Shown here: positions 21,963 to 36,116 of the stretch, one piece after another
Layout: each line of letters begins with the position of its first letter
Numbering within the stretch: the stretch's first letter is position 1
DNA from: Armatimonadota bacterium
Lineage (GTDB): Bacteria > Armatimonadota > Zipacnadia > Zipacnadales > UBA11051
DNA length: 44,730 bases
Reading direction: 5' to 3'
Assembly: GCA_013178155.1 (NCBI GenBank)
Contig: JABLXH010000001.1
Location: 1 to 44,730, forward strand
Position numbers and translations under genes: made by a program
Notes under the pieces: model-generated
Told to the model about the DNA's origin: nothing
Databases searched by the model: none
The model's input: the letters and a program-made list of their open reading frames with translations, nothing else

Positions 21963-22001
21963 TACCCGCCACCCCGACAGCAGGCCGGGCCGCACGGCGT
22001 C
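21963..22001 (+). repeat. 39-bp direct repeat, copy 1
   Basis: Perfect 39-bp sequence starting TACCCGCCACCCCGACAG and ending CACGGCGTC, repeated at 22060-22098, 97 bp away start to start. It lies three bases after the stop codon of the DUF4838 gene in a convergent 261-bp gap. The two copies bracket the dispersed repeat copy B, giving a composite element. No open frame in the gap looks coding. Confidence 0.9.
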
Positions 22002-22017
22002 ACCCTCCGGTCATGCC

Positions 22018-22059
22018 TTCCGTCCCGCAGGGACGGTCTCCCCCAGGCGGGTACTTCAG
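22018..22059 (-). repeat. Dispersed intergenic repeat, copy B
   Basis: Read on the minus strand it is CTGAAGTACCCGCCTGGG...GGGACGGAA, 42 bp, matching copy A at 17821-17865 except for a few substitutions and a 3-bp deletion. An internal inverted repeat (CCGTCCC, TGC, GGGACGG) can form a 7-bp stem. Located between two 39-bp direct repeats, it appears to be part of a larger composite intergenic element. Confidence 0.8.
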
Positions 22060-22098
22060 TACCCGCCACCCCGACAGCAGGCCGGGCCGCACGGCGTC
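22060..22098 (+). repeat. 39-bp direct repeat, copy 2
   Basis: Second perfect copy of the repeat at 21963-22001, directly abutting repeat copy B. The remaining sequence to 22221 (end of the S13 peptidase gene) is GC-rich and holds nothing I can identify. Confidence 0.9.
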
Positions 22099-22221
22099 CG
22101 GGTCGGAGACCCCTCCCACAGATGGGCAGCGCGGCCTACGGAATCCGGCACAGATGCATCGCGTACCAAGGCCTCCCCCAGATGAGGGTTTCAACCCCCG
22201 CCCATGCCCTACCCTCAGACC

Positions 22222-23343
22222 TCAACCGCCCTCCAACCACTCCACCATGGTCACGCAGGCCCGGTTCTGGATATCACGCATCGGGCCGGCTCCGTAACGG
22301 TGGTTGTTCATCATGATCGAGAAGCACAGGACTTCGCCATTGCAGGGAATGTAGCCCGAGAGCGTCGAGACCCCCGTCAGGAAGCCCGTCTTGGCCCGCA
22401 CCGTGCCTGCCGCGCAGGTGCCCTGCATGCGCAGTCGCAGGGTTCCGTCCACGCCCGCCACAGGCAGAGCGTCCAGGAAGTTGGGCCGCAAGAGCTCGTC
22501 TGCATACGCCACCTGCAGGAGCTGCACCAGGAAGCGGGGCGTCAGGCGGTTCTGGCGCGATAGCCCGCTGCCGTCCACGAAGCGACACCCGTCCAGGGGC
22601 AGCCCCAGGGGTCGCCAGACGTCCTTCACGAAGGCGTCATAGCTCCCTGCCGCCGCATGGTGGTAACGCAGTGACTGGGCGAAACCGTCCGCGATGGTGT
22701 TGTCACTGCGCTTGTTCATGTCCCTCACCAGTTCCCCGGTGGTCTCTGACTGCCAGCGGTGCAGGAGTATGGCCTGCGGCGGGACCTCACCGACGCTCGC
22801 AGGTCGGTTGATGACCACTCCCAGCCTGTTGAGGGCCAGGAAGAGGGCCTTGGCGTCCCTCAGTTCGGGGTCCGGGTGTGGTTCGCAGGTCACCGGTCCG
22901 GCGCAGACGACGGTGCCCGTGATGGCCCGCAGGCCCTCGCGATAGAGCCGCTGGGCGGCGCGGACAATGAAACCACGGTCGAGAACGGGATGAGCCAGGC
23001 CCTTGAGATAGAGGTTTCCCACGATGGCGCCGCGTTGGTCGGGGCGGGCATCGGCGTAGAGCGCCGTCGGAAAGGCGTAGCCGTCGCCCCAGGTGCGCAG
23101 GACGGTGGCGGCCGTGACCAGTTTCATGTTCGAGGCCGGCATGAGTGCCGCGTCGGCGTGCTGTTCGTAAAGAGCAGTCCCCGTGACTTTCGCAACGCAC
23201 ACTCCGACATCCACCCCCCGCAAGCAGGGATCGGCCAGGATGCGGTCCAGGCGCTCGCGCAGGGCGGCGGGCGACGGCGGGCTGGCGCACAGGGGCGTAG
23301 TGGCAACCAGTAGACCGATGAGGATAGCGGTGGTGGCGCGCAC
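22222..23343 (-). CDS. Compact D-Ala-D-Ala carboxypeptidase/endopeptidase (S13, PBP4-type)
   Basis: A 373-residue exported penicillin-binding protein of MEROPS family S13, trimming or cleaving peptidoglycan cross-links in the periplasm. The signal peptide is residues 1-20. The three active-site motifs are SxxK at Ser71-Lys74 (PASNMK), SxN at Ser213-Asn215 (KRSDNT) and KTG at 318-320 (AKTGFL). It is about 100 residues shorter than E. coli DacB (477), with only about 140 residues between SxxK and SxN, so the insert domains are reduced. The GTG start is supported by the signal peptide. No Shine-Dalgarno precedes it, and a TATAAT box lies only 6 nt upstream, suggesting a leaderless mRNA. It is convergent with the DUF4838 gene and divergent from the ABC operon. 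Confidence 0.92.
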   Translation of the reverse strand: MRATTAILIGLLVATTPLCASPPSPAALRERLDRILADPCLRGVDVGVCVAKVTGTALYEQHADAALMPASNMKLVTAATVLRTWGDGYAFPTALYADARPDQRGAIVGNLYLKGLAHPVLDRGFIVRAAQRLYREGLRAITGTVVCAGPVTCEPHPDPELRDAKALFLALNRLGVVINRPASVGEVPPQAILLHRWQSETTGELVRDMNKRSDNTIADGFAQSLRYHHAAAGSYDAFVKDVWRPLGLPLDGCRFVDGSGLSRQNRLTPRFLVQLLQVAYADELLRPNFLDALPVAGVDGTLRLRMQGTCAAGTVRAKTGFLTGVSTLSGYIPCNGEVLCFSIMMNNHRYGAGPMRDIQNRACVTMVEWLEGG

Positions 23344-23349
23344 AGGCCG

Positions 23350-23378
23350 ATTATACCGGCCCGAGCGGCCCCGGTGAA
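23350..23378 (-). promoter_or_regulatory. Predicted sigma-70 promoter of the S13 peptidase gene
   Basis: On the minus strand, -35 TTCACC (23378-23373; 4 of 6 to TTGACA) is separated by exactly 17 nt from a perfect -10 TATAAT (23355-23350). Transcription would start at or next to the GTG start codon at 23343, implying a leaderless transcript. There is no Shine-Dalgarno sequence, which agrees. Confidence 0.7.
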
Positions 23379-23417
23379 CCCCTCACCCGAGTTGCCGCCG
23401 CAACGACACAGGAACTA

Positions 23418-23446
23418 TTGGAGATACCGAAGCATCATGTTAGACT
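23418..23446 (+). promoter_or_regulatory. Predicted promoter of the ABC/LolA-like operon
   Basis: -35 TTGGAG (23418-23423), 17-nt spacer, -10 TAGACT (23441-23446; 4 of 6), with TG one base upstream of the -10 (extended -10). The first start codon is about 70 nt downstream. It is divergent from the S13 peptidase promoter, with about 40 bp between the -35 boxes. By-eye match only. Confidence 0.5.
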
Positions 23447-23515
23447 GTGAGGGGCGCAGAAGGGCGTCTGAACGGAGCAATCGGCTTGGCGCAAGGATCC
23501 TATCCGGGAGGAGGC

Positions 23516-24436
23516 ATGGCCGCGGCCCTGGAGACAATCGGTCTTTCCAAGCGCTACGGGCGCCGGCAAGCCGTCGCCGGGCTCGATCTTCGCGTGCCCG
23601 AAGGGTGCATCTTCGGCTTCCTGGGGCCCAACGGCGCCGGGAAAAGCACAACCATCCGGATGACCATGGGGCTAGTGCGGCCGAGCGCGGGCGCTGTCCG
23701 CATCTTTGGTCATCTCGTCGGGCGCAATGGCCCGCCGGCCGAGGCGCGAGTGGGTGCTCTGGTGGAAAGCCCCGCTCTTGCCGATTACCTCTCCGGACGC
23801 CGCAATCTGGAGATGCTCGCCGCTCTGTCCGGTGGTGCCGAAGCCGGGCGCATAGACCAGGTACTGGAGCTGGTGGGGCTAACGGCGCGACAGCATGACC
23901 GTGTCCGGACCTACTCCCATGGCATGCGCCAGCGGTTGGGCCTGGCCCAGGCGCTGGTGCCTCGCCCGCGGTTCCTGATACTGGACGAGCCCGCCCTGGG
24001 CCTGGACCCCGAGGGTCTGGCCGAGATGCGTCGGCTCCTGCTGTACCTGCGCGACGAGGAACACATTACGGTCTTTCTCTCCAGCCACCTCTTGCACGAG
24101 GTGGAGCATACCTGCGACGAGGTCGCTGTCATCGTCCAGGGGCAGCTCCTGGTGCAGGGGAGGGTGGCGGAGTTGCTTCGCGCACGCTCCGGCCGGCTTG
24201 TCGTACGTGTGGACAACGCTCCCCGGGCGGCCACAGTGGCGCGGGGTGTGGCGGGGGTGCAAAGTGTGGTGGCGGCGGACGGGCAGCTTCTGGTGGATGT
24301 GGCGCCGCAGCACGTCGCCGACCTGAACGCGGCCCTGGTGCAGGCGGGGCTGCGTGTGACCGAACTGACTCGAGAGCGACCGACCCTGGAACAGGCTTAC
24401 CTGGAGTGGATGGCGCGGGATGAAGCTGCTCCTTAG
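23516..24436 (+). CDS. ABC transporter ATP-binding protein
   Basis: A 306-residue ATPase of the ABC-2 exporter type (CcmA/DrrA/NatA-like). Walker A is GPNGAGKST (37-45), the signature is SHGMRQR (134-140) and Walker B is FLILDEP (153-159), followed by ALGLDP and the switch His in SSHLLHEVEHTC. The C-terminal about 90 residues form the usual accessory domain. The ATG at 23516 is favoured because a GGGAGGAGG purine tract precedes it and family similarity begins there; 23 upstream codons are open but unlikely. The 3' end overlaps the permease gene by 17 nt, so the two are translationally coupled. The substrate is unknown. It is not of the LolD type, which pairs with LolC/E. Confidence 0.93.
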   Translation: MAAALETIGLSKRYGRRQAVAGLDLRVPEGCIFGFLGPNGAGKSTTIRMTMGLVRPSAGAVRIFGHLVGRNGPPAEARVGALVESPALADYLSGRRNLEMLAALSGGAEAGRIDQVLELVGLTARQHDRVRTYSHGMRQRLGLAQALVPRPRFLILDEPALGLDPEGLAEMRRLLLYLRDEEHITVFLSSHLLHEVEHTCDEVAVIVQGQLLVQGRVAELLRARSGRLVVRVDNAPRAATVARGVAGVQSVVAADGQLLVDVAPQHVADLNAALVQAGLRVTELTRERPTLEQAYLEWMARDEAAP

Positions 24437-25259
24437 CTTCTGGCTGGAGCTGGGCAAGATCTTCCGGCAACGTGGAACCTACGCCGGACCCGCGGTGCTG
24501 CTGGCCGTCTGCGCCCTGGCGGTGTGGGGCCTCACGAAAGAGGGTCCCGACCGCGCCCTGGCCCGTCGGGTGGGTCCCGACATGGTGGTGGGCGGGCGGC
24601 TCATCACCGCCGCTACCGTGGGCCGGTACGTGATGGAGCCCTGCCTGATCGTGTTGCTGCCGCTCATGGTGGCGGCGGTGGCCGGCGGGCTTGTGTCCGG
24701 TGAGGCGCGCAGCGGTTTCCTGCGGACGTGGCTGTGCAGGCCGGTTTCACGCTGGGCGGTGCTGACCGGCAAGCAGCTCGCGGCCTGGGTGCATGCCATC
24801 TTCCTGGTCGCCTGCCTGGGCGTGGCCGCCCTTGGGCTGGGGTATATCTTCCTGGGTGGCGGTGATCTCATCGAGGTCGGCAGTGGGGAGGGCGTGGTCA
24901 TCCTGGAAGAGGGGCTGGCGCTCAAGCGGCTGGCCCTGGCCTACGCGGTGGCAGCGGTTCTCATGTGCGCCATGGCCTCGCTGGCGCTCATGGCCTCGAC
25001 GATCTTTGAGAACCCGCTGGTCTCGGCGGCCGTGGCCGTCGCCTTCCTGCCGCTTTGCACGGTGGTCTCGACCCTGCCCTACTTCGAGAGCTGGAAACCG
25101 TACCTGCTGACGACGCACTTTGAGGTGTGGCGCCATGCCTTCCGCGCCACGCTGTCCGGTGGCGACTTCACCCAGTCACTGGGCTGCGTTCTAGCCTATT
25201 GCCTGGCGCCGTACTGTATCGGCCTGGTCATCTTTCACCTCCGGGATGTGACCTGCTGA
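24420..25259 (+). CDS. ABC-2-type permease
   Basis: A 279-residue membrane protein with about six helices (for example YAGPAVLLAVCALAVWGL, CLIVLLPLMVAAVAGGLVSG, AIFLVACLGVAALGLGYIFL, and LGCVLAYCLAPYCIGLVIF at the C-terminus). The stretch GLVSGEARSGFLRTWLCRPVSRWAVLTGKQ is characteristic of ABC-2/NatB-like permeases. Overlap of 17 nt with the ATPase gene and a 2-nt gap to the LolA-like gene show tight coupling. Together with the ATPase it forms an export complex in the inner membrane. The large loop after helix 4 is rich in charged residues. Substrate unknown. Confidence 0.9.
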   Translation: MKLLLSFWLELGKIFRQRGTYAGPAVLLAVCALAVWGLTKEGPDRALARRVGPDMVVGGRLITAATVGRYVMEPCLIVLLPLMVAAVAGGLVSGEARSGFLRTWLCRPVSRWAVLTGKQLAAWVHAIFLVACLGVAALGLGYIFLGGGDLIEVGSGEGVVILEEGLALKRLALAYAVAAVLMCAMASLALMASTIFENPLVSAAVAVAFLPLCTVVSTLPYFESWKPYLLTTHFEVWRHAFRATLSGGDFTQSLGCVLAYCLAPYCIGLVIFHLRDVTC

Positions 25260-25261
25260 CC

Positions 25262-25951
25262 ATGAAACAGCCCAACCCGTGTTACCTGCTGGTATGGGGT
25301 CTGGTCAGCCTGGGGAGTGTGGCCTTCCCGGCGGTATTGACGGGACCCGAGATACTGAAGCGAGCGCTGAACCTGCAGGCCGGCCTACAGGACTATACGG
25401 CCACGGTCCAGGTCACCGTCAACATGCCCGGCATCCAGGTCCCCCAGCGGACTGCCAAACTCTACTTCAAGCGCCCCGACAAGCTTCACGTGGAGTCCAG
25501 GGGTATCGTCATGATCCCGCGCCAGGCGCTGCTCATGGGCGACCTGGGGACCCAGTTGGCGAGACAGGCGCGGGTCATCCTGGCGGCCACGGGCCAGAAG
25601 GACGGCGCCCCGCTGTACTTCATCAAGGTGCTCCCGCCGGAGGGCCACGCGACCTCCGACCGGCTGCTGGTGTGGATCCGCGGCGATCGCTTCACCATCG
25701 AGAAGCTCGAGGTATACCGGGGCGGCCAGCGGGAGATCGCGGTGCAGTGGGAGCATCAACTGGTCAACGGCAGATTCTGGCTGATGAAGCGGCTGCAGGC
25801 CGAGGTCAGCACGCGACAGATGGGACAACACCGGCGCTCCGGAGAGACCCCCCGGACGCCCACCGGTCCGGGTACCATCACTGTCGTGTTCAGCAACGTG
25901 CGGGTCAACTCCGGTCTGCCCGATAGCCTGTTCGTGGAGCAGAAGCGCTGA
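25262..25951 (+). CDS. LolA-like (outer-membrane lipoprotein carrier fold) exported protein
   Basis: A 229-residue protein with an N-terminal signal sequence (YLLVWGLVSLGSVAFPAVL), followed by 'ILKRALNLQAGLQDYTATVQVTV', the usual helix-strand beginning of LolA/RseB-fold proteins. Repeated beta strands follow (TAKLYFKRPDKLHVES, IVMIPRQALLMG, YRGGQREIAVQWEHQL, TITVVFSNVRVNSGLP). Such proteins bind lipid or lipoprotein acyl chains in the periplasm. The start ATG is two bases after the permease stop; the upstream in-frame extension overlaps the permease and is rejected. The stop overlaps the next start by one base (TGATG). Context suggests that the ABC exporter hands a hydrophobic cargo to it. 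It may instead belong to a RseB-like sensor group, which would fit the sigma-like neighbour. Confidence 0.75.
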   Translation: MKQPNPCYLLVWGLVSLGSVAFPAVLTGPEILKRALNLQAGLQDYTATVQVTVNMPGIQVPQRTAKLYFKRPDKLHVESRGIVMIPRQALLMGDLGTQLARQARVILAATGQKDGAPLYFIKVLPPEGHATSDRLLVWIRGDRFTIEKLEVYRGGQREIAVQWEHQLVNGRFWLMKRLQAEVSTRQMGQHRRSGETPRTPTGPGTITVVFSNVRVNSGLPDSLFVEQKR

Positions 25952-26814
25952 TGCCATGGTCTGGGCTCCGAGGCGAGCGGGATACCACTGAGCGCGTGCA
26001 GCGAGCCTTGTACATTCGCTGCCGGCGGGGTGAGTCAGAGGCGCTGGCGGCGCTGCTGTACTCGCTGGTTGACCGCCTCTATACGGCGGCCTCCTATGTC
26101 CTGCCGGACGAGACCTCGGCCATCACGACGGTGGCCGAGACCTGGCATGACCTGATGGAGAGCCTGCGTGGGGCCTGGGGAACCCGGAACCTCCTGGTGC
26201 GCGCCATGCACCTGCTGGGACAGAGGCTCAAGACCATGGCCCCTGACGACCAGGTGGACCGGGCGCTGCGGCGGGCACGAACCGAAGATGACGGTGGTTT
26301 GCTCTCATTTCCTGATGGCGATCTGCAGGTTCTGCTTGACGCTGTGCCTCTGCAGGCGCTGCATATCGCCGAGAGTGCGGGCCGGCGCCGCATGCGGTTC
26401 CGGCAGGCCGTGGCTTTCGCGGTGCTTTTCGTTGCCTTCGTCGTCGGCCACAACATCTGGCGCCAGGGCACCGCTCGGCGGTCCGCTGAAACACTGAAAC
26501 TGACGGCCTTGCAGGCAGAGGTGCAGCGGGATCAACTCATAACCGCCGTGCGCGACTGTGTGGACGAGCTGCCCGACCCGGAAGGAGCTGACCGTTACGA
26601 GGCCCGGGTGCTGCAGCAACTGGGTCTGGTACTGGAGGAGCTGGCCAACACCCAGGCCGCCCAAGGCGCACAGACCCTCGCCCTGTTGTCGCGCCGGGTG
26701 CGCCAGGAGCGGCTGACCGAGGACCTCACAGAAGTGATGAGCCAGCGGGAAGGCATGGCGCGCAAGGAGCTTTCCCGCGCCCTTCTCGTCCTGGAAGAGG
26801 TGGCCAATCTGTGA
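25951..26814 (+). CDS. Membrane protein with sigma-region-2-like N-terminus
   Basis: A 287-residue protein I do not recognise as a named family. Residues about 14-75 (RVQRALYIRCRRGESEALA..., LYSLVDRLYTAASYVL, VAETWHDLMESL) have the spacing and character of ECF sigma-70 region 2, although region-2 DNA-melting aromatics are not clearly conserved. A helix-rich linker follows, then one transmembrane helix at about 152-169 (RQAVAFAVLFVAFVVGHNIW), then an acidic helical C-terminal part of about 115 residues, probably a coiled coil. There is no region-4 helix-turn-helix in the place expected, so a functional sigma factor is unlikely; a tethered sigma-derived regulator or anti-sigma-like protein is possible. 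It starts within the stop codon of the LolA-like gene and overlaps the next gene by 4 nt. Confidence 0.6.
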   Translation: MPWSGLRGERDTTERVQRALYIRCRRGESEALAALLYSLVDRLYTAASYVLPDETSAITTVAETWHDLMESLRGAWGTRNLLVRAMHLLGQRLKTMAPDDQVDRALRRARTEDDGGLLSFPDGDLQVLLDAVPLQALHIAESAGRRRMRFRQAVAFAVLFVAFVVGHNIWRQGTARRSAETLKLTALQAEVQRDQLITAVRDCVDELPDPEGADRYEARVLQQLGLVLEELANTQAAQGAQTLALLSRRVRQERLTEDLTEVMSQREGMARKELSRALLVLEEVANL

Positions 26815-28529
26815 GAGCTGTGGTGCTGGGCTTGCTGTTTGCCTCGGTCCTCGGCGGTTGCTCCTCCCGGGGTGAGCGCTACTACCAGCGCGCCGAGCAG
26901 TTCTTCGTGCAGGGGCAGTTCGCGCTGGCTGCCGAGGAATACCGCCGGGTGGTGAACGAGGACCCTCAGTCTCCGCTGGCTGACGATGCGGCGTACAAGC
27001 TGGCCTACCTGTACCGCGAGGAGATGGGAAGCCTGCCCGAGGCTATCGAGACCTATCGCCTCCTGGCTGACCGCTTCCCCGAATCGCCTTACGCCGACGA
27101 CGCCCTCCTGTGGGTCCTGTACCTGCAGGGACATGACCTGAAGGATGTGGCGGCCGCCCGGCGGACCTATGAGCTGCTGTGCCAGCGTTTCGCGAGCCAG
27201 AAGGATGTCTGTGCCCGAGCGCACTTGCAGTTGGCCCGGGCACTGCTGACGGTTGGCCAGTACGAGGCGGCCGATGCCGAGGCCAAGCGCCTGGGGGAGC
27301 TGTACCCGGAACAGACGCGCCAGGCCGCCGCGGCTCTGCTGTTGCGAGCACGTCTGGCAGAGAAGCTGAACCGGCCCGACGAGGAGGCCGTCAAGCTCTA
27401 CGAGGAAGTCGTGAAGGCCTACCCGGACACCTTCAGTGCGGCGGAGGCCAAGCGCGCCATCGGCTGGGTCTTTTATGGCGAGATGGGCAAACAGCGTCAA
27501 GCGGAGCGACTGGCCAAGCAGCGTGCGGCCCGTATCATCTCCGGTGTCCCCGACTTCGCCAGTGACAGCGGGACAATGCGCCAAGCGCCGTTTGTTTGCC
27601 TGCGCAGCCTCCTGGCTCAGCGTGGTCTGGCGGTCTCAGTCGAGGAGCTACTGGCGCTGTCCGGAGCCGCCTTCGAGTTCCGCTATGATCCTGCCAATCC
27701 CGGCGTCACGACGGCTCACCTGCCGCGTGGCGCTCTGACTGCGGCGGCGGAGCACTGCGGTTTTGCCGTCGTCACCTGGTCAGCATCGTCGGCCGAGGCC
27801 AGCTTCTCCAGCCTCGCCCAGAACATCGGGCAGGGGCGACCTGTCATGGTGCCGCAGCGCGGACAGGGGCGCTGGCTCATTGTTACGGGCTACCGGCCGG
27901 CGGAGGACCGCGTTTACGTGCTTCCGGGACGCAACGGACAGCCGCGCTCGATGTCGAGACGGGAGTTCCTGAATCGGTGGGCCAATCATACTGCGGGTCA
28001 CACGGCGGTAGTCACGGGGCCGTACTACCAGTTCTGTCTGGGGCAGCGGCTGCAGGCGCCCGAGCCCGACAGTTGGCTTCGCGCCATGGCCCGCAGTGCC
28101 TCTGCGGCCTTGCACGAGCAGGGCAGTGGTGGCACTGCAGCGGGGCTGCGAGCCTATGATCTCCTGACACAGCGCATCAGCGCCATGCCAGATGCCTCGG
28201 CCGAAGAGCAGCGAGCCCTGCGAACCTGGGCGCAGAGCGGTCTGGCAGGGCTGGTTGGTGATCGCGCCGCTGCGGCGACCGCTTTGCAGAAGCTGGCGCC
28301 GCGGTTGACAGGCGCTGCACAGAGCAAGACGGCGGAGGCGGCAAGCACGTACGAAGACGTGCGGCGACTGGGCGAGCAGTTGCGCGCCGCGCTGCTGTCG
28401 CTAACTCGGACCGCAGAGGGCGCGGAACCGCCTCCGGAGGCCTCGTGGCCCGAAGCGGCACAGCTTGCGCGTGAGATGCGCGCCGCCGACGAGCGTGCCG
28501 CCACCCTGCTTGCCGAAGCCGCTCGTTAG
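26811..28529 (+). CDS. TPR lipoprotein with C39-like domain lacking apparent catalytic His
   Basis: A 572-residue lipoprotein. The lipobox is LGGC with the lipidated Cys17. Residues about 22-240 are BamD/YbgF-like TPR repeats (YYQRAEQFFVQGQFALAAEEYRRVV, FPESPYADDALL). Residues about 256-400 resemble a C39-like/BtrH-type papain-fold domain: Cys263 in APFVCLRSLLAQRG and the later beta strand GRWLIVTGYRPAEDRVYVLPG. In active C39 enzymes a His starts that strand; here Arg354-Trp355 stand there, so it may be a non-catalytic binding domain. The last about 170 residues are helical. It starts at GTG within GTGA, overlapping the upstream stop. It is probably anchored in the inner or outer membrane and works with the exporter/LolA-like protein. 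Confidence 0.7.
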   Translation: MRAVVLGLLFASVLGGCSSRGERYYQRAEQFFVQGQFALAAEEYRRVVNEDPQSPLADDAAYKLAYLYREEMGSLPEAIETYRLLADRFPESPYADDALLWVLYLQGHDLKDVAAARRTYELLCQRFASQKDVCARAHLQLARALLTVGQYEAADAEAKRLGELYPEQTRQAAAALLLRARLAEKLNRPDEEAVKLYEEVVKAYPDTFSAAEAKRAIGWVFYGEMGKQRQAERLAKQRAARIISGVPDFASDSGTMRQAPFVCLRSLLAQRGLAVSVEELLALSGAAFEFRYDPANPGVTTAHLPRGALTAAAEHCGFAVVTWSASSAEASFSSLAQNIGQGRPVMVPQRGQGRWLIVTGYRPAEDRVYVLPGRNGQPRSMSRREFLNRWANHTAGHTAVVTGPYYQFCLGQRLQAPEPDSWLRAMARSASAALHEQGSGGTAAGLRAYDLLTQRISAMPDASAEEQRALRTWAQSGLAGLVGDRAAAATALQKLAPRLTGAAQSKTAEAASTYEDVRRLGEQLRAALLSLTRTAEGAEPPPEASWPEAAQLAREMRAADERAATLLAEAAR

Positions 28530-28540
28530 GACGACCGATA

Positions 28541-29446
28541 GTGCTGGACCGAGAGACGCGAAGACAACTGTCGGAGCTGGCGCGCCGGACTCGTCAGGTC
28601 ACCGGGGAGGCGCCCTATGCCTCCCGGGTGCCGCACCGCTGCGAGCCGGACAGCGCCCCGCCTGCATCTTTGGTCGGCGCCTGCCGTGTGGGCGCAGCCG
28701 ATCCGGTCCACGGTCCACTGCACCTACTGCTGCCTGGAGAGGTGCGGTCGGTACCGGAAGGGGAGTACTACGAACTGCGCACGCCAGTCTCTCATTGCGG
28801 TGACTGGGCGGCGGCGGCGGTGGGCCGCTGGTTGCAAGCGGCCCGCCGGGGAGAGTGGGTGCTGCCCGGTGCGGCGCGCGGGAGTCTGGACCCTGGGACT
28901 GTGCTGTTCATGGACACCGAGACGACCGGCCTGGGAAACGAACCGCTCTTTCTGGTTGGCCTGCTTTCTGTCGAGCAGGGCCTTCCCGTGTTGACGCAGT
29001 TACTGGCCCGCGACTATGCCGAGGAAGCGGCAGTACTGGCCGAAGCGGCGCGACGCATGGTGTCCTCTGCCCTGCTCGTGACCTACAATGGCGCGCAGTT
29101 CGATCTGCCGTACGTGCGCAACCGGCTGCGCTACCATCGTCTCCGCGCGCCCCGGTTCGAACCGCACCTCGACCTACTCCGCGTGGCACGCAGCCGTCTG
29201 CGCCGGACGCTGGGCGACTGCAAGCTGCAGACACTGGAAAGGCACCTGTGTGGGCGACAGCGCGTCGCTGACATTCCAGGGGCAGAGATTCCTCAGGCCT
29301 ACCATGACTTCGTCGCTGATGGCGACGCTTGCCGCCTGCGACAGATCGTGATGCATAACAGCCTTGACCTGATCACATTGGCCGAGCTGGCGGCCCATCT
29401 GCTCGCTGGCGAGGCCGGTAGTTCGGCTCTAGAGGCGAAGGGATGA
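28541..29446 (+). CDS. RNase H-like DEDD exonuclease (YprB-like)
   Basis: A 301-residue protein with a ribonuclease-H-like 3'-5' exonuclease domain in its C-terminal two thirds. Exo I is FMDTETTGLG, with Asp125 and Glu127 as the first two metal ligands; Exo II is YNGAQFDLPYV; Exo III is in MHNSLDLITLAEL with the last Asp. This arrangement resembles YprB-type proteins (ribonuclease H-like fold, PF13482), which have a short N-terminal extension. No signal peptide is present, so it is cytoplasmic. The GTG start lies 12 nt after the previous stop. The presence of a nuclease within an envelope-export operon is odd and may reflect cotranscription only. The last codon overlaps the next gene's start (ATGA). 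Confidence 0.85.
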   Translation: MLDRETRRQLSELARRTRQVTGEAPYASRVPHRCEPDSAPPASLVGACRVGAADPVHGPLHLLLPGEVRSVPEGEYYELRTPVSHCGDWAAAAVGRWLQAARRGEWVLPGAARGSLDPGTVLFMDTETTGLGNEPLFLVGLLSVEQGLPVLTQLLARDYAEEAAVLAEAARRMVSSALLVTYNGAQFDLPYVRNRLRYHRLRAPRFEPHLDLLRVARSRLRRTLGDCKLQTLERHLCGRQRVADIPGAEIPQAYHDFVADGDACRLRQIVMHNSLDLITLAELAAHLLAGEAGSSALEAKG

Positions 29447-31275
29447 TGGCGATTGTGAGAGACGACCAGTTTGGGGGCGACGACCGGGACCGCGAAGGCA
29501 TGAGCGAAGGGAATACACCGCCCGACACGTCGGAGTCTTCGTCCCAGGTCGAGCCGGAACCCGAGCCTGATGACTACTGCCCTCCAACCGATGTGTTCGG
29601 CCCCACACCTCTGGGGTGGGATGAGCCACCGTCCGAGGAGGCGGAGCCGTTCCGGCCGGCGGAAACCGGCGCGCGCGTGACGGGTGTGCTCGTCGTCATT
29701 CTTTCGCTGGGTCTGCTCGCCTGTGCGGCGTGGGCGGTGAAGCTGCACCGGGACAAGGCCCAGGTCACCGCCAGCTTCGACCAGACCTTGGCGATGATCG
29801 CCGAGGTCGCGCCACCCGAACTGGGGACGCAACTCGCCGCCGTGCGGGGCGACCTGCAGGTGGACCGACTCCCGGAGGTGAGTGAGCGAATCAGCACGCT
29901 GGCGGGCAAAGTCCGCCAGGCCATGGCCAGTGGGGAACAACCTTCCCCTGCGGTCCCGCGCGGGCCGATCCCTGATTCGGCGTACAAGCAGTTGCCAGCC
30001 GATGCGGCGACCTTCTTCCGGCAGCACGAAGAGCTCTTCCGGCGCTTCCTGGCCATGGTTGAACACGCTCGCCAACTCCGCGACCAGGGCCGCAACGTCA
30101 ATCCCCTGCGAAAGGTCCGGGACAGCATCATCGAGGCCGCGCGGCTGGGCCAGTCCGAGAAAGTGGAGACCCATATGCAGCAGATGGCCCGGCTCCTGGA
30201 CGCCACCTCCGGGCGGCGGGGGGCGCCGCCCGGCAAGCTGGCGGCCAAGGCCCAGGCCTTTGAGCGGGCGACGCGACGCGCCGTGCAGGAGGGTCGCGAC
30301 CCCCGGGCGGCCGTGGCCGTGGCTCGACAGGCGGAGCAGGCTGCCCAGGCAGGTGACCTCGATCGCGCCGAACAGCTTCTCGATCAGGCGCTGGGCCAGG
30401 TCAAGCGCGCGCCCAAGGCCCGGAGAGCGTCTGGTCGCTGGGGCGGACCCGGCGGTCCCCGGCCAGCGAACCCGCTTGATGCCCTTGTAAGCACGCTCAT
30501 GCGGGTTATGCAACTGGAAGAGCGAGACCTGAGTGTGGTCTGGGGCCAGCTTACCAGACTGCAGCAAAGCCTCAAGGGGGACCAGGACCAGACCGAACCA
30601 GCGGTTCTCGAGCCCTACGTCGGGACGGCCATGCACGCGCTGCAGAACGTGGCTGGTCGCCGGCGAGAGCTGACGCTCCGCCTGCGGGGCCAGACCCCCC
30701 GGGCTGGCCGCCGTCCGGCAGATGGCCCGCGGCTGGGAACGATCGATGCTGATCGCACGCCTGACCGCGAACACATGCTTGCCGTGGTGAGCAACCGACT
30801 TGGCCCGCTTCTGGAACGCATACGCGGCATGTCAGCCAGTGACTTCGTGCAGCAGCAAGCCAAGCTGGTCGAGGACATCGCCAGGGCTGTGCTGCAGCCG
30901 ATCACGGAAGAGGAACTGGCGGCGACTCCCCCGCCTCAAGCTGCGCCGCAAGGATCACAGGCCGAACGGATTCGCGCCAAGCTACTGGCAGGCGCATCAG
31001 CTCTGCAGCGGCAGGAACTGGCTGGCGACGATACCAGCGAGGTCCAGGACCTGTTCACCGAGGCGCGCCGATTGCTGTATGCCGGTGACCTTGGCCGCGC
31101 GGAGGAGGCAGCGGACAAAGCACTGACTCTCCTCGGTGTCCCGCTGAAGCAGTTTGGCTCAGGGCCCGGCGCTCCGGACCGCCCCCGGCCGGAGCTCTAC
31201 GACCCCGAGGCCACCAAACTGGAACTCGTTCCTGGCCGGGCTGGTGACCAGGGGGGTGACACGCCAACCCCCTGA
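29443..31275 (+). CDS. Membrane-anchored helical protein of unknown function
   Basis: A 610-residue protein not recognised as a family. Residues 1-75 are acidic and Pro/Glu/Ser-rich (cytoplasmic tail). One transmembrane helix at about 79-98 (TGVLVVILSLGLLACAAWAV) follows, then about 510 residues of mostly amphipathic helix rich in Ala, Arg, Gln and Glu, with Pro/Gly-rich breaks (GRWGGPGGPRPANP). TPR-like pairs appear (AVAVARQAEQAAQAGDLDRAEQLLDQAL; RRLLYAGDLGRAEEAADKALTLLG), recalling the TPR lipoprotein upstream. By analogy it would be an envelope-facing scaffold. The ATGA overlap with the exonuclease gene supports cotranscription. A second start at codon 20 is possible. It ends the operon; uvrA follows after its own promoter. 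Confidence 0.7.
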   Translation: MMAIVRDDQFGGDDRDREGMSEGNTPPDTSESSSQVEPEPEPDDYCPPTDVFGPTPLGWDEPPSEEAEPFRPAETGARVTGVLVVILSLGLLACAAWAVKLHRDKAQVTASFDQTLAMIAEVAPPELGTQLAAVRGDLQVDRLPEVSERISTLAGKVRQAMASGEQPSPAVPRGPIPDSAYKQLPADAATFFRQHEELFRRFLAMVEHARQLRDQGRNVNPLRKVRDSIIEAARLGQSEKVETHMQQMARLLDATSGRRGAPPGKLAAKAQAFERATRRAVQEGRDPRAAVAVARQAEQAAQAGDLDRAEQLLDQALGQVKRAPKARRASGRWGGPGGPRPANPLDALVSTLMRVMQLEERDLSVVWGQLTRLQQSLKGDQDQTEPAVLEPYVGTAMHALQNVAGRRRELTLRLRGQTPRAGRRPADGPRLGTIDADRTPDREHMLAVVSNRLGPLLERIRGMSASDFVQQQAKLVEDIARAVLQPITEEELAATPPPQAAPQGSQAERIRAKLLAGASALQRQELAGDDTSEVQDLFTEARRLLYAGDLGRAEEAADKALTLLGVPLKQFGSGPGAPDRPRPELYDPEATKLELVPGRAGDQGGDTPTP

Positions 31276-31375
31276 AGTCACCACCCGGGGGGATCCGTAT
31301 CGGCAGCAAGCCGAGGCTGACTGCGACCAGCCGGGGGCATTCTCCAGCCTCAGCCGGCAGACAGGGGCGCGGCTG

Positions 31376-31404
31376 TTGTGAGGCCAGCAGGGGTCTGGTA
31401 TACT
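31376..31404 (+). promoter_or_regulatory. Predicted promoter of uvrA
   Basis: -35 TTGTGA (31376-31381, 4 of 6), 17-nt spacer, -10 TATACT (31399-31404, 5 of 6), with TG one base upstream of the -10 (extended -10). The uvrA ATG is about 38 nt downstream. No LexA-type box is apparent between them. The rest of the 166-bp gap before uvrA is GC-rich without a clear feature. Confidence 0.65.
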
Positions 31405-31441
31405 GTCATATCCAGTTGCCATCCCGCTGTGCAGGTCTGCC

Positions 31442-34270
31442 ATGGCTGAGGACAAGATACGCATCTACGGGGCGCGGGAGCACAACCTCCGCGACCTGAC
31501 ACTAGAGCTGCCCCGGGGGAAGCTGATTGTCTTTTGCGGAGTGAGTGGCTCGGGTAAGTCGTCGCTGGCCTTTGACACCATCTATGCCGAGGGCCAGCGC
31601 CGTTACGTCGAGTCGCTTTCGACTCACGCCCGGCAGTTCCTGGGGGGTATGACCCGGCCGGCCGTAGACCACATTGACGGCCTCTCTCCGGCCATCGCCA
31701 TTGACCAGGCGTCAGCCAGCAGCAACCCCCGGTCCACTGTCGCCACAATCACCGAAATCTACGACTACCTGCGGGTCCTTTACGCCCGCACGGGGCAGCC
31801 GTACTGCGTGAAGTGCGGCATCCCCATCACCGCCGCGACGCCCCAGATGATTGTGGATAAGATCATGGCCCTGGGTGAGGGGACGCGGCTCATGATCCTG
31901 GCTCCTGTGCAGCCGGCGCCGGGTGAGGCCTGGAAACACGTGCTACGGGAGGCGCGCCGGTCAGGGTTTGCCCGCATTCGGCTCGATGGGCAGGTCATCC
32001 CTCTGGATCAGCCAATAGACATCAGCGAGGGCGAACACAGCTTCGAGGTTGTGGTGGACCGCCTGGCCCTGAGCGACCGAGTGCAGGCACGACTGGCGGA
32101 CTCGGTGGAGACAGCCCTGGCCTATGGCGGCGGCCGCATCGTCGCCGCTGTGCTGGGTGACACGGAGGACGAGACACGCGACCTGCGTTTCTCCACGCAT
32201 TTTGCCTGCTCACAATGCCAGGCCGTCGTTCCGCCGATGAGCCCGCAGCTCTTCTCCTTTAACAGCCCGCACGGCATGTGCCCCACCTGCGGCGGCCTGG
32301 GCTATGTGCGTGACATGGACCCCGACCGCTTCGTGGCTGACCCCGGCAAGTCCATTCTGCAAGGCGCGCTCTCGCCCTTCGGCGATGTGCGCGGCGGGCA
32401 TCTGCTGCACACACTCACCGGCCTGGCCCAGCACTATGACTTCAGCCTCGATACACCTTGGCGAGACCTGCCCGCACACGTCCGGGAGGTGATCCTCTAT
32501 GGGTCCCGGGGTGAGGAGATCGCCTTCAGCTACGAGACCCAGCACGGGCGCACGATACAGTATCACCGGCCCTTCCGGGGCCTGGTGGTCGCCAGCCGCA
32601 AGCGCTATGAGGACACCGACTCCCGCACCGAGAAGAGCTACCTGGAGCGCTACCTGTCAGAACTGCCTTGCCCGGATTGCGAAGGGCGCCGGCTGCGCCC
32701 GGAGGCTCTGGCGGTCCGCGTCGCCGATCGCGGTATTGCCGAGGTGACAGCACTGGACGTGGAGGCAGCTCTGAGCTTCCTCTCCCAGATCACGCTACCG
32801 GCCACCGAGGGTGTGATTGCTGCGGAAGTGCTCAAGGAGATCACCGCCAGGCTGCGGTTCATGGTGGACGTCGGGGTGGGCTACCTCAGCCTCGACCGAC
32901 CGGCACCAACGCTCTCCGGCGGCGAAGCCCAACGCATCCGCCTGGCCACGCAGATGGGTTCGGGCCTGGCGGGAGTCCTTTACATCCTCGATGAGCCCAG
33001 CATCGGCCTGCACCCCCGGGACCAGGCAAAGCTCCTGGAGACTATCCGCCAGCTCCGCGATCTCGGCAACACCGTCATCGTCGTCGAACATGACATCCCC
33101 ACCATCGAGAGCGCCGACTACGTGGTCGAGTTCGGACCGGGGGCCGGCATCCGCGGTGGCGAGCTGATCTACGCCGGCGATGTGGCCGGGATGCGCCGCG
33201 ACAAACGATCTCTGACCGGACGGTACCTTAGCGGCGAGTTGCGCCTGGGCACGCCCCGGCACCGCCGCCGAGGCAAAGCCACGCTCAAGGTCATCGGCGC
33301 TACCGAGCACAACCTGCAACACATTGATGTGGAGCTCCCCCTGGGAACGCTGATCTGCGTGACTGGCGTCTCGGGCTCTGGCAAGAGCACCCTCGTCCAC
33401 GATGTCATCTACCGGGCGCTCAAGCGCTATCTGCACCGGAGTCGAGACCTCGTGGGGCGTCACGAACGTATCGAAGGGCTGGAGCATCTCGACAAGGTCA
33501 TCAACATTGACCAAAGCCCCATCGGCCGGACCCCTCGCTCCAACCCGGCCACCTACGCTCACGTCTTTGGTCCCATCCGCGACCTCTTCGCCGCCACCCC
33601 GGAGGCCCAGGTCCGTGGCTACCAGCCGGGTCGCTTCAGCTTCAACGTTCGCGGCGGTCGCTGCGAACTCTGTCAGGGCGACGGCACCATCCGGGTGGAG
33701 ATGCACTTCCTGCCACCCGTCTACGTCCCTTGCGAGCAGTGCGGGGGCAGGCGCTACAACCGTGAGACGCTCCAGATTCGCTACAAGGGCAAGAACATCG
33801 CCGAAGTTCTGGACATGACCGTGGCTGAGGCGCTGGAGCACTTTGAGAACGTGCCGCAGGTCAGCCGGGTGCTGCGCATGCTGTATGACGTCGGCCTGGA
33901 CTATATCAGGCTGGGCCAGTCGGGCACCACTCTCTCGGGCGGCGAGGCCCAGCGCCTGAAGCTGGCGCGCGAGCTGGCCAAGATCGGTACGGGACAGACA
34001 CTGTACGTCCTGGACGAGCCGACCACGGGGCTGCATTTTGCCGACATTGAGAAGCTGCTGCAGGTACTGGAGCGGCTGGTTGATGCCGGCAATACGGTGA
34101 TCGTGATCGAGCACAACCTTGATGTCATCAAGACCGCCGACTACATTGTGGACCTCGGGCCCGAGGGGGGCAAGGCTGGAGGCGAGGTGGTCGCCTGCGG
34201 GACCCCGGAGCAGGTGGCCGCCAACCCCAGGAGCTACACCGGCCAGTTCCTGAAACAGGTTCTGGACTGA
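31442..34270 (+). CDS. uvrA: Excinuclease ABC subunit A
   Basis: A 942-residue UvrA, the damage-recognition ATPase of nucleotide excision repair, normal in length for the family. The first Walker A is GVSGSGKSS near residue 34 and the second is GVSGSGKST near residue 643. Zinc-binding Cys pairs are visible at 256/259 with 280/283 and at 741/744 with 764/767. Signature motifs LSGGEAQRIRLA and LSGGEAQRLKLA and Walker B stretches YILDEPSIGLHPRD and YVLDEPTTGLHFAD are present. It has its own predicted promoter. The stop is followed after 16 nt by the GH36 gene, so read-through into the glycan genes is likely; this arrangement is unusual but need not be functional. Confidence 0.98.
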   Translation: MAEDKIRIYGAREHNLRDLTLELPRGKLIVFCGVSGSGKSSLAFDTIYAEGQRRYVESLSTHARQFLGGMTRPAVDHIDGLSPAIAIDQASASSNPRSTVATITEIYDYLRVLYARTGQPYCVKCGIPITAATPQMIVDKIMALGEGTRLMILAPVQPAPGEAWKHVLREARRSGFARIRLDGQVIPLDQPIDISEGEHSFEVVVDRLALSDRVQARLADSVETALAYGGGRIVAAVLGDTEDETRDLRFSTHFACSQCQAVVPPMSPQLFSFNSPHGMCPTCGGLGYVRDMDPDRFVADPGKSILQGALSPFGDVRGGHLLHTLTGLAQHYDFSLDTPWRDLPAHVREVILYGSRGEEIAFSYETQHGRTIQYHRPFRGLVVASRKRYEDTDSRTEKSYLERYLSELPCPDCEGRRLRPEALAVRVADRGIAEVTALDVEAALSFLSQITLPATEGVIAAEVLKEITARLRFMVDVGVGYLSLDRPAPTLSGGEAQRIRLATQMGSGLAGVLYILDEPSIGLHPRDQAKLLETIRQLRDLGNTVIVVEHDIPTIESADYVVEFGPGAGIRGGELIYAGDVAGMRRDKRSLTGRYLSGELRLGTPRHRRRGKATLKVIGATEHNLQHIDVELPLGTLICVTGVSGSGKSTLVHDVIYRALKRYLHRSRDLVGRHERIEGLEHLDKVINIDQSPIGRTPRSNPATYAHVFGPIRDLFAATPEAQVRGYQPGRFSFNVRGGRCELCQGDGTIRVEMHFLPPVYVPCEQCGGRRYNRETLQIRYKGKNIAEVLDMTVAEALEHFENVPQVSRVLRMLYDVGLDYIRLGQSGTTLSGGEAQRLKLARELAKIGTGQTLYVLDEPTTGLHFADIEKLLQVLERLVDAGNTVIVIEHNLDVIKTADYIVDLGPEGGKAGGEVVACGTPEQVAANPRSYTGQFLKQVLD

Positions 34271-34286
34271 CAGCAGAGAGGCCAGT

Positions 34287-36116
34287 ATGCATCACCTCAC
34301 GGATAGCGCCGGTCAGTTGGCCCTGCTCGATGCCACGGGCCAGAAGGTGCTGGGCGCAGTTCTGCTTTGCGACACCGCCGAGGCCCAGGGGCCGGTGCCC
34401 ATGACGGGAGGGGATGACGGCGTCTGGCGCGGACGGCAGGGGAGTGTGCTGCTGGAGGTCCGCGAGACCGGGACCGGCACCGATTTCACTGAGCTGTCAC
34501 TTCTGGTAGTCCCCCATCAGGCAGTGCGCGTCGAGCGAGTCGGGCTGCGACTGACCATGGGCGTGGGCGGCCGACCCCTCCTGGCAAAGGACGCCCAACT
34601 GGTGGCCCTGGGCGAGAGCCTCGGCGCGGCGCGGCGCGTTACGGAGCTGGGGCAACTCCTCGACGCCGGGGAGGGCCGAGTCACCCTCCACGCCATCGGC
34701 GCGCTGCTCAAGGGTGCGGCGCAGGCGCTGCTGGTGGGCATTGGTGGCGTGACGCCGGACTTCCCAGCCATCACCGCCGACGGTGAGACCGTTGAGATCG
34801 TGCTGGAGGTGGGGCACAGCGTCTGCCAGCCGGTCGAGTACCGGCTGGTCATCGGGCTGTCCACCGATCCCTTTGCTCTGCTGGAGAGCTATGGCGACCT
34901 GCTGGCCCGCAACGGGCGGCGCGTGGGCGACATCCCGACGGGCTGGAACAGTTGGGACTACTACCAGGGCGCCGTGACCATGGACGACATCCGCGCCGAG
35001 ATGGCGGCCATCAACGCCTCGCCACTCCGCGGGAAGCTCAGGTACCTGACCATAGACATGGGCTGGGAGAACTCCTGGGGCGACTGGAGACCCAACCGCA
35101 AGTTTCCCCCAGACTATGCCGCGATTGCCGACGAGATCCGGGCCGCGGGCTTTGAGCCCGGCATCTGGCTGGCGCCGCTGCAGGCCAGCACCTACCTGCC
35201 GGCCGCGCGGCACGACCGGGAGATGTTCTGCCGCGGGGCCGATGGCGAGCCCATCATTGCTCCCGGTCGCACCTCCTACCTCCTCTTTGACCCGACTCAC
35301 CCACGGACCGAGGAATGGCTGCACGGTCTTTGCTGTGAACTGCGCCAGTCCGGCTTCTCCTTGTTCAAGATTGACTATATCTACCGCAATTACCTGGACA
35401 TGATCCCTCAGTTCCACCGGCCGGAGGTGGGTCGCGCAGCCGCCGCCCGGCGCTTTCTCGAGATCATCCGGAACGCCATTGGTGACGACGCCCATCTGCT
35501 CTCCTGCGGTGTGCCCCTGCCGGCTGCCTTCGGCCTGGCTGACAGCGCCCGCATCTCTACTGACATCCACAACTTCTGGGGACACATCCGCAACAGTGCC
35601 CTGCAGCTATCTGTCGCCTACTGGCTGGGCGGACGGGTGTGGATCAATGATCCGGACTTTGCGCTCATCCGCAGTCCCCAGACCACCGACGACCCTTATC
35701 TGAACGTCCCATACCAGCGCACCCCCTACACCGGCGAGGGCTTCTGGATGGCCGGCGACGATGCCAGCTTCGAGGAGCTGAAAACCTGGCTGACGCTGGT
35801 GCATCTCTGCGGCGGGTCGCTCTTTGCCAGTGACTCCATGCCGCGGCTGAACCAGCTTGGCTGGCACACACTTCAGCGCCTGTACGTTGAGCCGTCGCCG
35901 CCGGCCCGGCCGCTGGACCTGTTTGAGAGCGCCCCGCCGCGTCTGTGGCTGGCCGAGGGCCGGCTGGGCGTCATCAACTACGCTGATGAGCCGGCCGAGA
36001 TCCCCCTGCCGGGCAACACGCCTTCTCGCGTTACCGACTTCTGGACGGGAGAGAGCCTCGTACTGGAGGCTGCCGTCGTCCTGCCGCCTCATGGCTCGCT
36101 GCTGCTGAAGGTGTAG
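34287..36116 (+). CDS. GH36-like alpha-galactosidase
   Basis: A 609-residue glycoside hydrolase of the GH36/clan-D type. Features are GWNSWDYY, the barrel strand LTIDMGWENSWGDWRPN, nucleophile Asp363 in LFKIDYIY, and acid/base Asp426 in SARISTD. An N-terminal beta-sandwich of about 200 residues and a C-terminal Greek-key end (FWTGESLVL) complete the fold. No signal peptide is seen, so it is cytoplasmic and would act on imported oligosaccharides. Alpha-galactosidase is most likely, with alpha-N-acetylgalactosaminidase or related activity possible. It follows uvrA by 16 nt and precedes a secreted lyase by 15 nt. Confidence 0.88.
   Translation: MHHLTDSAGQLALLDATGQKVLGAVLLCDTAEAQGPVPMTGGDDGVWRGRQGSVLLEVRETGTGTDFTELSLLVVPHQAVRVERVGLRLTMGVGGRPLLAKDAQLVALGESLGAARRVTELGQLLDAGEGRVTLHAIGALLKGAAQALLVGIGGVTPDFPAITADGETVEIVLEVGHSVCQPVEYRLVIGLSTDPFALLESYGDLLARNGRRVGDIPTGWNSWDYYQGAVTMDDIRAEMAAINASPLRGKLRYLTIDMGWENSWGDWRPNRKFPPDYAAIADEIRAAGFEPGIWLAPLQASTYLPAARHDREMFCRGADGEPIIAPGRTSYLLFDPTHPRTEEWLHGLCCELRQSGFSLFKIDYIYRNYLDMIPQFHRPEVGRAAAARRFLEIIRNAIGDDAHLLSCGVPLPAAFGLADSARISTDIHNFWGHIRNSALQLSVAYWLGGRVWINDPDFALIRSPQTTDDPYLNVPYQRTPYTGEGFWMAGDDASFEELKTWLTLVHLCGGSLFASDSMPRLNQLGWHTLQRLYVEPSPPARPLDLFESAPPRLWLAEGRLGVINYADEPAEIPLPGNTPSRVTDFWTGESLVLEAAVVLPPHGSLLLKV

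Follow-up and report, generated by a model that had tools for sequence, protein, structure and literature searches.

A conserved seven-gene operon in an Armatimonadota order pairs a LolA-like exporter with a membrane-anchored sigma-region-2-like protein

What does a bacterium do with an exporter ATPase, a permease, a LolA-like carrier, a sigma-factor-like membrane protein, a lipoprotein, a nuclease and a further membrane protein, all encoded as one packed block? The question is raised by positions 23516–31275 of a 44,730-nt stretch of an Armatimonadota contig (JABLXH010000001.1; the whole stretch is called the window below), which belongs to a genome of 5.5 Mb in 211 contigs. The block consists of seven open reading frames (ORFs), named g1–g7 in order, all on the forward (+) strand. 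The original prediction offered, as a possible reading, an envelope-transport machine with built-in regulation. It gave the seven ORFs, their strand, the overlaps of 17 nt (g1/g2), 1 nt (g3/g4), 4 nt (g4/g5) and 4 nt (g6/g7) and the 2-nt gap between g2 and g3 correctly; the gap between g5 and g6, put at 12 nt, is 11 nt (28530–28540). Comparison with relatives shows that g1–g7 are a real operon, whose gene order is conserved in one order of Armatimonadota (Candidatus Zipacnadia/WS1) with linkage far above chance.

The gene order recurs in 35 relative loci fetched from five families. When adjacent pairs were counted over assessable contigs, g4 and g5 were always neighbors (34/34), as were g1 and g2 (26/26); the counts were 27/28 for g2–g3, 29/33 for g3–g4, 26/33 for g5–g6 and 12/27 for g6–g7. 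Neighboring genes in the relatives mostly overlap or are separated by short gaps. Of the 41 genomes of the order, 36 have a relative of g4, and a search of 210 other genomes of the phylum found none; a profile of its C-terminal part gave the same distribution, with one marginal match outside the order. The named relatives are Candidatus Zipacnadia, candidate division WS1 and Armatimonadota metagenome-assembled genomes. Distances within g1–g3 track those within g4–g5 (r 0.95 over 24 genomes, a value that common species history by itself also raises), and families mostly cluster together, which fits a vertically inherited block. The conserved linkage that had been proposed as a check is present, and a scatter of unlinked homologues is excluded.

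The label of g4 (25951–26814; AlphaFold2 pLDDT 94.5) as a membrane protein with a sigma-region-2-like N terminus was borne out by both profile and fold. Residues 4–111 (25960–26283) form a sigma-region-2-like helical domain, predicted to be cytoplasmic. The g4 profile matches extracytoplasmic function (ECF) sigma factors in the PDB, the best being SigR (1h3l, 3.7e-5). In structural superposition, residues 15–109 of the model match CnrH over 88 residues (Z 8.8, rmsd 2.3) and residues 9–98 match region 2 of SigC (Z 8.4); such Z scores are not by themselves decisive for a helical domain, and it is the agreement of sequence and fold that counts here. Hydropathy places a transmembrane (TM) helix at residues 152–170 (26404–26460), preceded by RRRMRFR, and the protein is probably oriented with its N terminus inside and its C terminus outside. 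Residues 183–287 (26497–26811) make up a second helical domain, predicted to be periplasmic, that ends in a conserved LVLEEVANL-type motif. A Csp-like four-helix bundle was considered for this domain and rejected, as the Z scores of up to 10.3 lie within the range expected of helical bundles.

Much of what defines a working sigma factor is missing from the g4 family. At the ECF region-2.2 positions, Asp is found in 5/33 members, Gln in 2/33 and the aligned Trp in 2/33; we take this Asp and Gln to be the signature of contact with the RNA polymerase core in ECF sigma factors. Region 4, responsible for −35 recognition, had no match among the 33 members, in which region 2 is followed by a linker, the TM helix and the helical domain, and it is absent both within g4 and next to it. 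The zinc motif H-x3-C-x2-C is absent from the g4 alignment.

The origin of g4 is suggested by sister families. A profile of the C-terminal half of g5 has relatives outside the order, and in two genomes (G176 of family f8 and G038 of family f7) the g5 homologue is directly preceded by a complete ECF sigma factor, with regions 2 and 4 recognized by Pfam, and a protein with an H-x3-C-x2-C motif and a TM helix. The latter is called an anti-sigma factor here by its motif and position; Pfam has no match for these proteins. Comparison of g4 with the sister sigma factors by hhalign gave a probability of 84.8%. The C-terminal part of g4 scored 29.2 against the two anti-sigma factors, with a maximum of 18.5 for shuffled sequences, or 18.3 when TM composition was kept, and the periplasmic part alone scored 29.5, with a shuffled maximum of 17.3. 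In each of the three shuffle nulls, 0/300 were as good, and the match runs end to end. Taken with the sigma-2 homology, the C-terminal match makes a sigma/anti-sigma fusion the best reading of g4. It looks like a sigma region 2 joined to the TM helix and outer domain of an anti-sigma factor, with the residues that usually contact the polymerase lost along with region 4 and the zinc motif.

Such a descent invites the reading that g4 continues to regulate transcription through a sigma-2 domain that is tethered or released by proteolysis. The operon would then be a circuit for envelope stress with a transporter attached. The sigma-2 domain might work with a partner region-4 protein, as RsoA does with SigO, or titrate an anti-sigma factor by mimicry, as in PhyR/NepR. 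The homology to ECF sigma region 2 is true homology, an intact sigma/anti-sigma pair occupies the same slot in the sister families, and there are sigma/anti-sigma fusions, known (IutY) or predicted (ECF48/52/53), that proteolysis sets free (PMC8999054). We nevertheless consider this reading rather unlikely given the low counts of the region-2.2 residues, the lack of region 4 in or beside g4 and the loss of the zinc motif. Furthermore, ORF reading showed no adjoining sigma gene at eight other loci with weaker LolA-like paralogues of g3, an observation that also led us to reject an origin of g3 as an RseB-like neighbor of sigma factors. The built-in regulation of the original prediction therefore stands as ancestry, in the ECF sigma and anti-sigma factors of the sister families; g4 is without what a sigma factor needs, and regulation by it in the present day is unproven.

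The constant neighbor of g4 is g5 (26811–28529; AlphaFold2 pLDDT 91.2), a tetratricopeptide repeat (TPR) lipoprotein as first labeled. The lipobox cysteine is Cys17 (26859–26861), the pair G16-C17 being kept in 34/34 homologues, and residues 20–239 (26868–27527) form a BamD/YfiO-like TPR solenoid (TPR_6 3.5e-14, YfiO 1.5e-6; Foldseek match to BamD, 3qky, 9.7e-6). The remainder, residues 244–572 (27540–28526), had been described as C39-like. In structure comparison this half has the fold of AziU3 (8gs1; Z 21.2 over 298 residues), CtaG (Z 18.1) and CcbD (Z 17.9). Among the homologues Pfam recognized BtrH_N in 13/34, and PF03412 (C39) was not among the matches. Enzymes of the BtrH_N type are papain-like and related to C39 (PMC10318531). 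The C39 peptidase reading is refined to a BtrH/CcbD/CtaG-type acyltransferase fold, one that lacks the catalytic cysteine. This cysteine would be expected near residue 259 by structure ranges (CtaG Cys11), or at 257–258 by the motif spacing of a BtrH-like relative at locus L203, and no Cys occurs at residues 257–259 in any of the 34 sequences. The inferred catalytic His position, 354, is His in 3/34. As judged from sequence and model, the domain is a catalytically dead member of this fold. Sequence-profile matches of the same half to the PDB were discarded, as they were only to designed or unrelated helical proteins.

Domains of the g5 type adjoin ATP-binding cassette (ABC) exporters in three distinct genomic contexts. 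The g5 homologue of G176 is succeeded by an ABC ATPase and a predicted membrane protein. In family f18, two genomes have an exporter of the ABC_membrane type after a g5-type domain. At these f18 loci (L204:7838-10905, L206:6313-9326) the pseudo-BtrH protein, without a recognized TPR, lies directly before the exporter and near ATP synthase genes. In G038, the BtrH-like protein of L203 (12172-12954, − strand) lies just upstream of the sigma/anti-sigma/g5 cluster and has a Cys-Cys pair where the catalytic site would be expected. The genome of the window itself has further distant relatives of the g5 C-terminal domain elsewhere (L170:1143-2555, on contig C90 of G000, and G000:C196:21947-22921).

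The exporter of the block is encoded by g1–g3, and Pfam confirmed the first two labels. g1 (23516–24436) is an ABC exporter ATPase of the DrrA/GldA-type subfamily (PF00005, 1e-25) that adjoins g2–g3 phylum-wide, and g2 (24420–25259) is an ABC-2 type permease with several hydrophobic segments (PF12679, ABC2_membrane_2; 48.7 bits, cut-off 27.2). The LolA-like label of g3 (25262–25951), a predicted periplasmic carrier with a signal-like hydrophobic N terminus, holds at the level of the family: PF17131 (LolA_like) matched 24/28 members at E<=0.01 (best 9.2e-13), and the family profile matched 3bk5, a solved LolA-like protein, at 2.7e-5. The g3 of the window alone falls under the PF17131 cut-off (18.3 of 30 bits). 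In profile searches, strong g3 orthologues were found in many other families, and those that were fetched mostly follow the same ATPase and permease. In families f15, f41, f26 and f39, the flanking neighbors of the triad are OEP/TolC, HlyD-type adaptor and AcrB-type resistance-nodulation-division (RND) genes (ORF reading, with Pfam in representatives), which points to export of a hydrophobic cargo. Loci in these families (L151:6232-14985, L158:2854-11839) also encode a small MazE/AbrB-type protein beside the triad, OEP, HlyD and RND genes. One of the weaker LolA-like paralogues adjoins a large RND-like membrane protein. Within the order, Omp85 was found in 38/41 genomes and OEP in 41/41, which indicates that an outer membrane exists.

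We propose that the block is a clade-specific envelope-export operon that moves a hydrophobic cargo from the inner to the outer membrane, and that g4, the remnant of a sigma/anti-sigma fusion, provides a link across the membrane; we give this proposal an even chance. It builds on what comparison supports, namely the conserved block and its modules, the sigma-2 fold, the lost sigma and acyltransferase residues and the sister sigma/anti-sigma pair. Going by their families, g1 and g2 would use ATP to extract or export the cargo at the inner membrane, candidates being a lipid, a lipopeptide or a lipoprotein. The LolA-like family and the phylum-wide triad suggest that g3 would ferry it over the periplasm. 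The lipoprotein g5 may then receive or dock the cargo, the TPR solenoid acting as scaffold and the inactive acyltransferase fold binding the cargo instead of catalyzing a reaction. In its present role, g4 would span the inner membrane and contact g5 on the outside through the former anti-sigma sensor domain. Its sigma-2 fold, seemingly no longer able to direct transcription, may face a partner in the cytosol, for which the exporter ATPase is the likeliest candidate. The bolder form of the proposal, that the sigma fold has left transcription altogether and, fused to its anti-sigma part, couples the inner ABC exporter to the outer TPR/pseudo-acyltransferase lipoprotein, is possible and we hold it only tentatively.

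Several points weigh against this proposal. The hydrophobic cargo, its carriage by g3, the docking on g5 and both contacts of g4, periplasmic with g5 and cytoplasmic with the exporter, are steps that we infer. A Foldseek search with the whole g4 model gave no significant match. The anti-sigma profile was built from only two sequences, and with HMMER by itself the link between g4 and the anti-sigma factors did not stand out from shuffles. The membrane protein that follows the f8 ABC ATPase had no Pfam match. The order also includes family f2, which has the triad and g7 without g4–g5. Four genomes (G180, G160, G201 and G197) have g4–g5 without adjacent g1–g3, and linkage to the exporter can therefore be dispensed with; the G197 triad is on a different contig from g4–g5. 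In the f2 genome G009, g7 directly follows g3 with g4–g6 absent.

The block is thus modular, with g1–g3, g4–g5 and g6–g7 separable, rather than one indivisible seven-part machine; the triad is phylum-wide and g4–g5 are an addition specific to the order. An envelope-transport machine, as first proposed, remains the best reading of g1–g3, with their phylum-wide triad and OEP/HlyD/AcrB neighbors, and does not extend to the seven genes as a single unit. Carried further, modularity would mean that two or three independent housekeeping modules (a g1–g3 exporter, a g4–g5 envelope sensor and the g6–g7 pair) merely share a transcription unit. g1–g3 stand apart in most triad-bearing families of the phylum, the four genomes above have g4–g5 on their own, and in G180 the exonuclease and g7 lie together on a separate contig. 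We judge independence unlikely all the same: the adjacency of g3 and g4 holds across five families, often with overlaps of 1–14 nt, where more breaks would be expected of unrelated genes, and g5-like proteins adjoin ABC exporters in separate lineages.

The last two genes can also lie apart from the rest of the block. g6 (28541–29446) is a DEDDh exonuclease of the RNase_H_2/YprB kind (PF13482, 2.8e-32), and the DEDD label is confirmed by the presence of every motif: D125, E127, D188, H272 and D276 are kept in all homologues with sequence there (D-x-E 25/25, N-x4-D 25/25, H-x3-D 24/24). PF13482 exonucleases occur in almost all genomes of the order, often two per genome, and g6 is therefore probably a passenger nuclease. 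g7 (29443–31275) has one TM helix (residues 81–99) and a long, mostly helical C-terminal region, as in its description as a membrane-anchored helical protein, and may be an accessory envelope protein. A search at class rank found strong matches within the class; sequence matches in the PDB were to repeat designs and other helical proteins, and were set aside.

At the borders of the block, GGAGG stands immediately 5' of the g1 ATG. The region 5' of g1 had no sigma70-like promoter match, the interval between g7 and uvrA had no terminator-like site, and no Rfam family was found at 22000–34500. In many relatives, a Gfo/Idh/MocA-type oxidoreductase with a GHWH/SHWH motif lies 3' of g7 or g6 (L050:3908-4963, L056:3861-4868, L066:14192-15202 and others, with L144, L145 and L147); uvrA occupies this place in the window. 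In family f2 the oxidoreductase stays with g7 even where g7 has left the triad. An S13 (DacB-like) carboxypeptidase gene (22222–23343, − strand) is divergent to g1 in the window, and it is upstream of and codirectional with g1 in most of family f3 and in G127 (L040, L052, L053, L054, L056, L058, L068, L070).

No described system of this composition was known to the original prediction. The nearest published system is the seven-gene BBJ23-29 export cluster of Borrelia, with an ATPase, a MacB-like permease, a LolA-like protein, TPR proteins and an Omp85 protein (PMC13078400). Its permease is of the MacB-like type VII rather than ABC-2, it has periplasmic TPR proteins where g1–g7 have the single lipoprotein g5, and its Omp85 is encoded in the cluster, whereas the block is without an Omp85 gene and the Omp85 matches lie on other contigs. 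The original statement needs qualifying in view of this cluster, though the sigma-like and pseudo-acyltransferase parts have no counterpart in BBJ23-29. The Lol system (LolCDE-LolA-LolB) similarly combines an ABC machine with a LolA-fold periplasmic carrier; g2 is of the ABC-2 and not the LolCE (MacB/FtsX) type, and the partner proteins differ. The triad/RND operons of Armatimonadota share the ABC/ABC-2/LolA-like triad and have RND-efflux partners (TolC/OEP, HlyD, AcrB-type) in place of g4–g7. The BtrH/CcbD/CtaG/AziU3 enzymes share the fold of g5 over about 300 residues, but g5 is lipoprotein-anchored, fused to TPRs and without the catalytic Cys in 34/34.

Sigma-like domains are used outside the usual single-chain sigma factor in PhyR and RsoA, both of which are soluble and act in transcription control. 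g4 resembles them in this respect, but is membrane-anchored. Membrane-tethered sigma/anti-sigma fusions are known as well (IutY/ECF243, ECF48, ECF52, ECF53) and, like g4, carry a sigma domain, a TM helix and an additional regulatory region on a single polypeptide. These are sigma factors with an anti-sigma part, treated as active once freed (PMC8999054), whereas all that g4 retains is region 2, a TM helix and an outer domain. A membrane-anchored ECF sigma region 2 within an export operon appears to be new; no precedent for a tethered region-2-only protein in such an operon was found in the literature, of which coverage was partial.

If correct, the proposal would show a stress-sensing sigma/anti-sigma pair that was fused, stripped of its transcription parts and recruited into an envelope machine. 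The sister families with an intact pair before the same gene would be living intermediates, which makes the path testable. The analysis also defines a clade-wide family of lipoprotein pseudo-enzymes, to which g5 belongs, and an ABC-2/LolA-like triad across Armatimonadota, a phylum in which the delivery of hydrophobic molecules to the outer membrane has hardly been studied.

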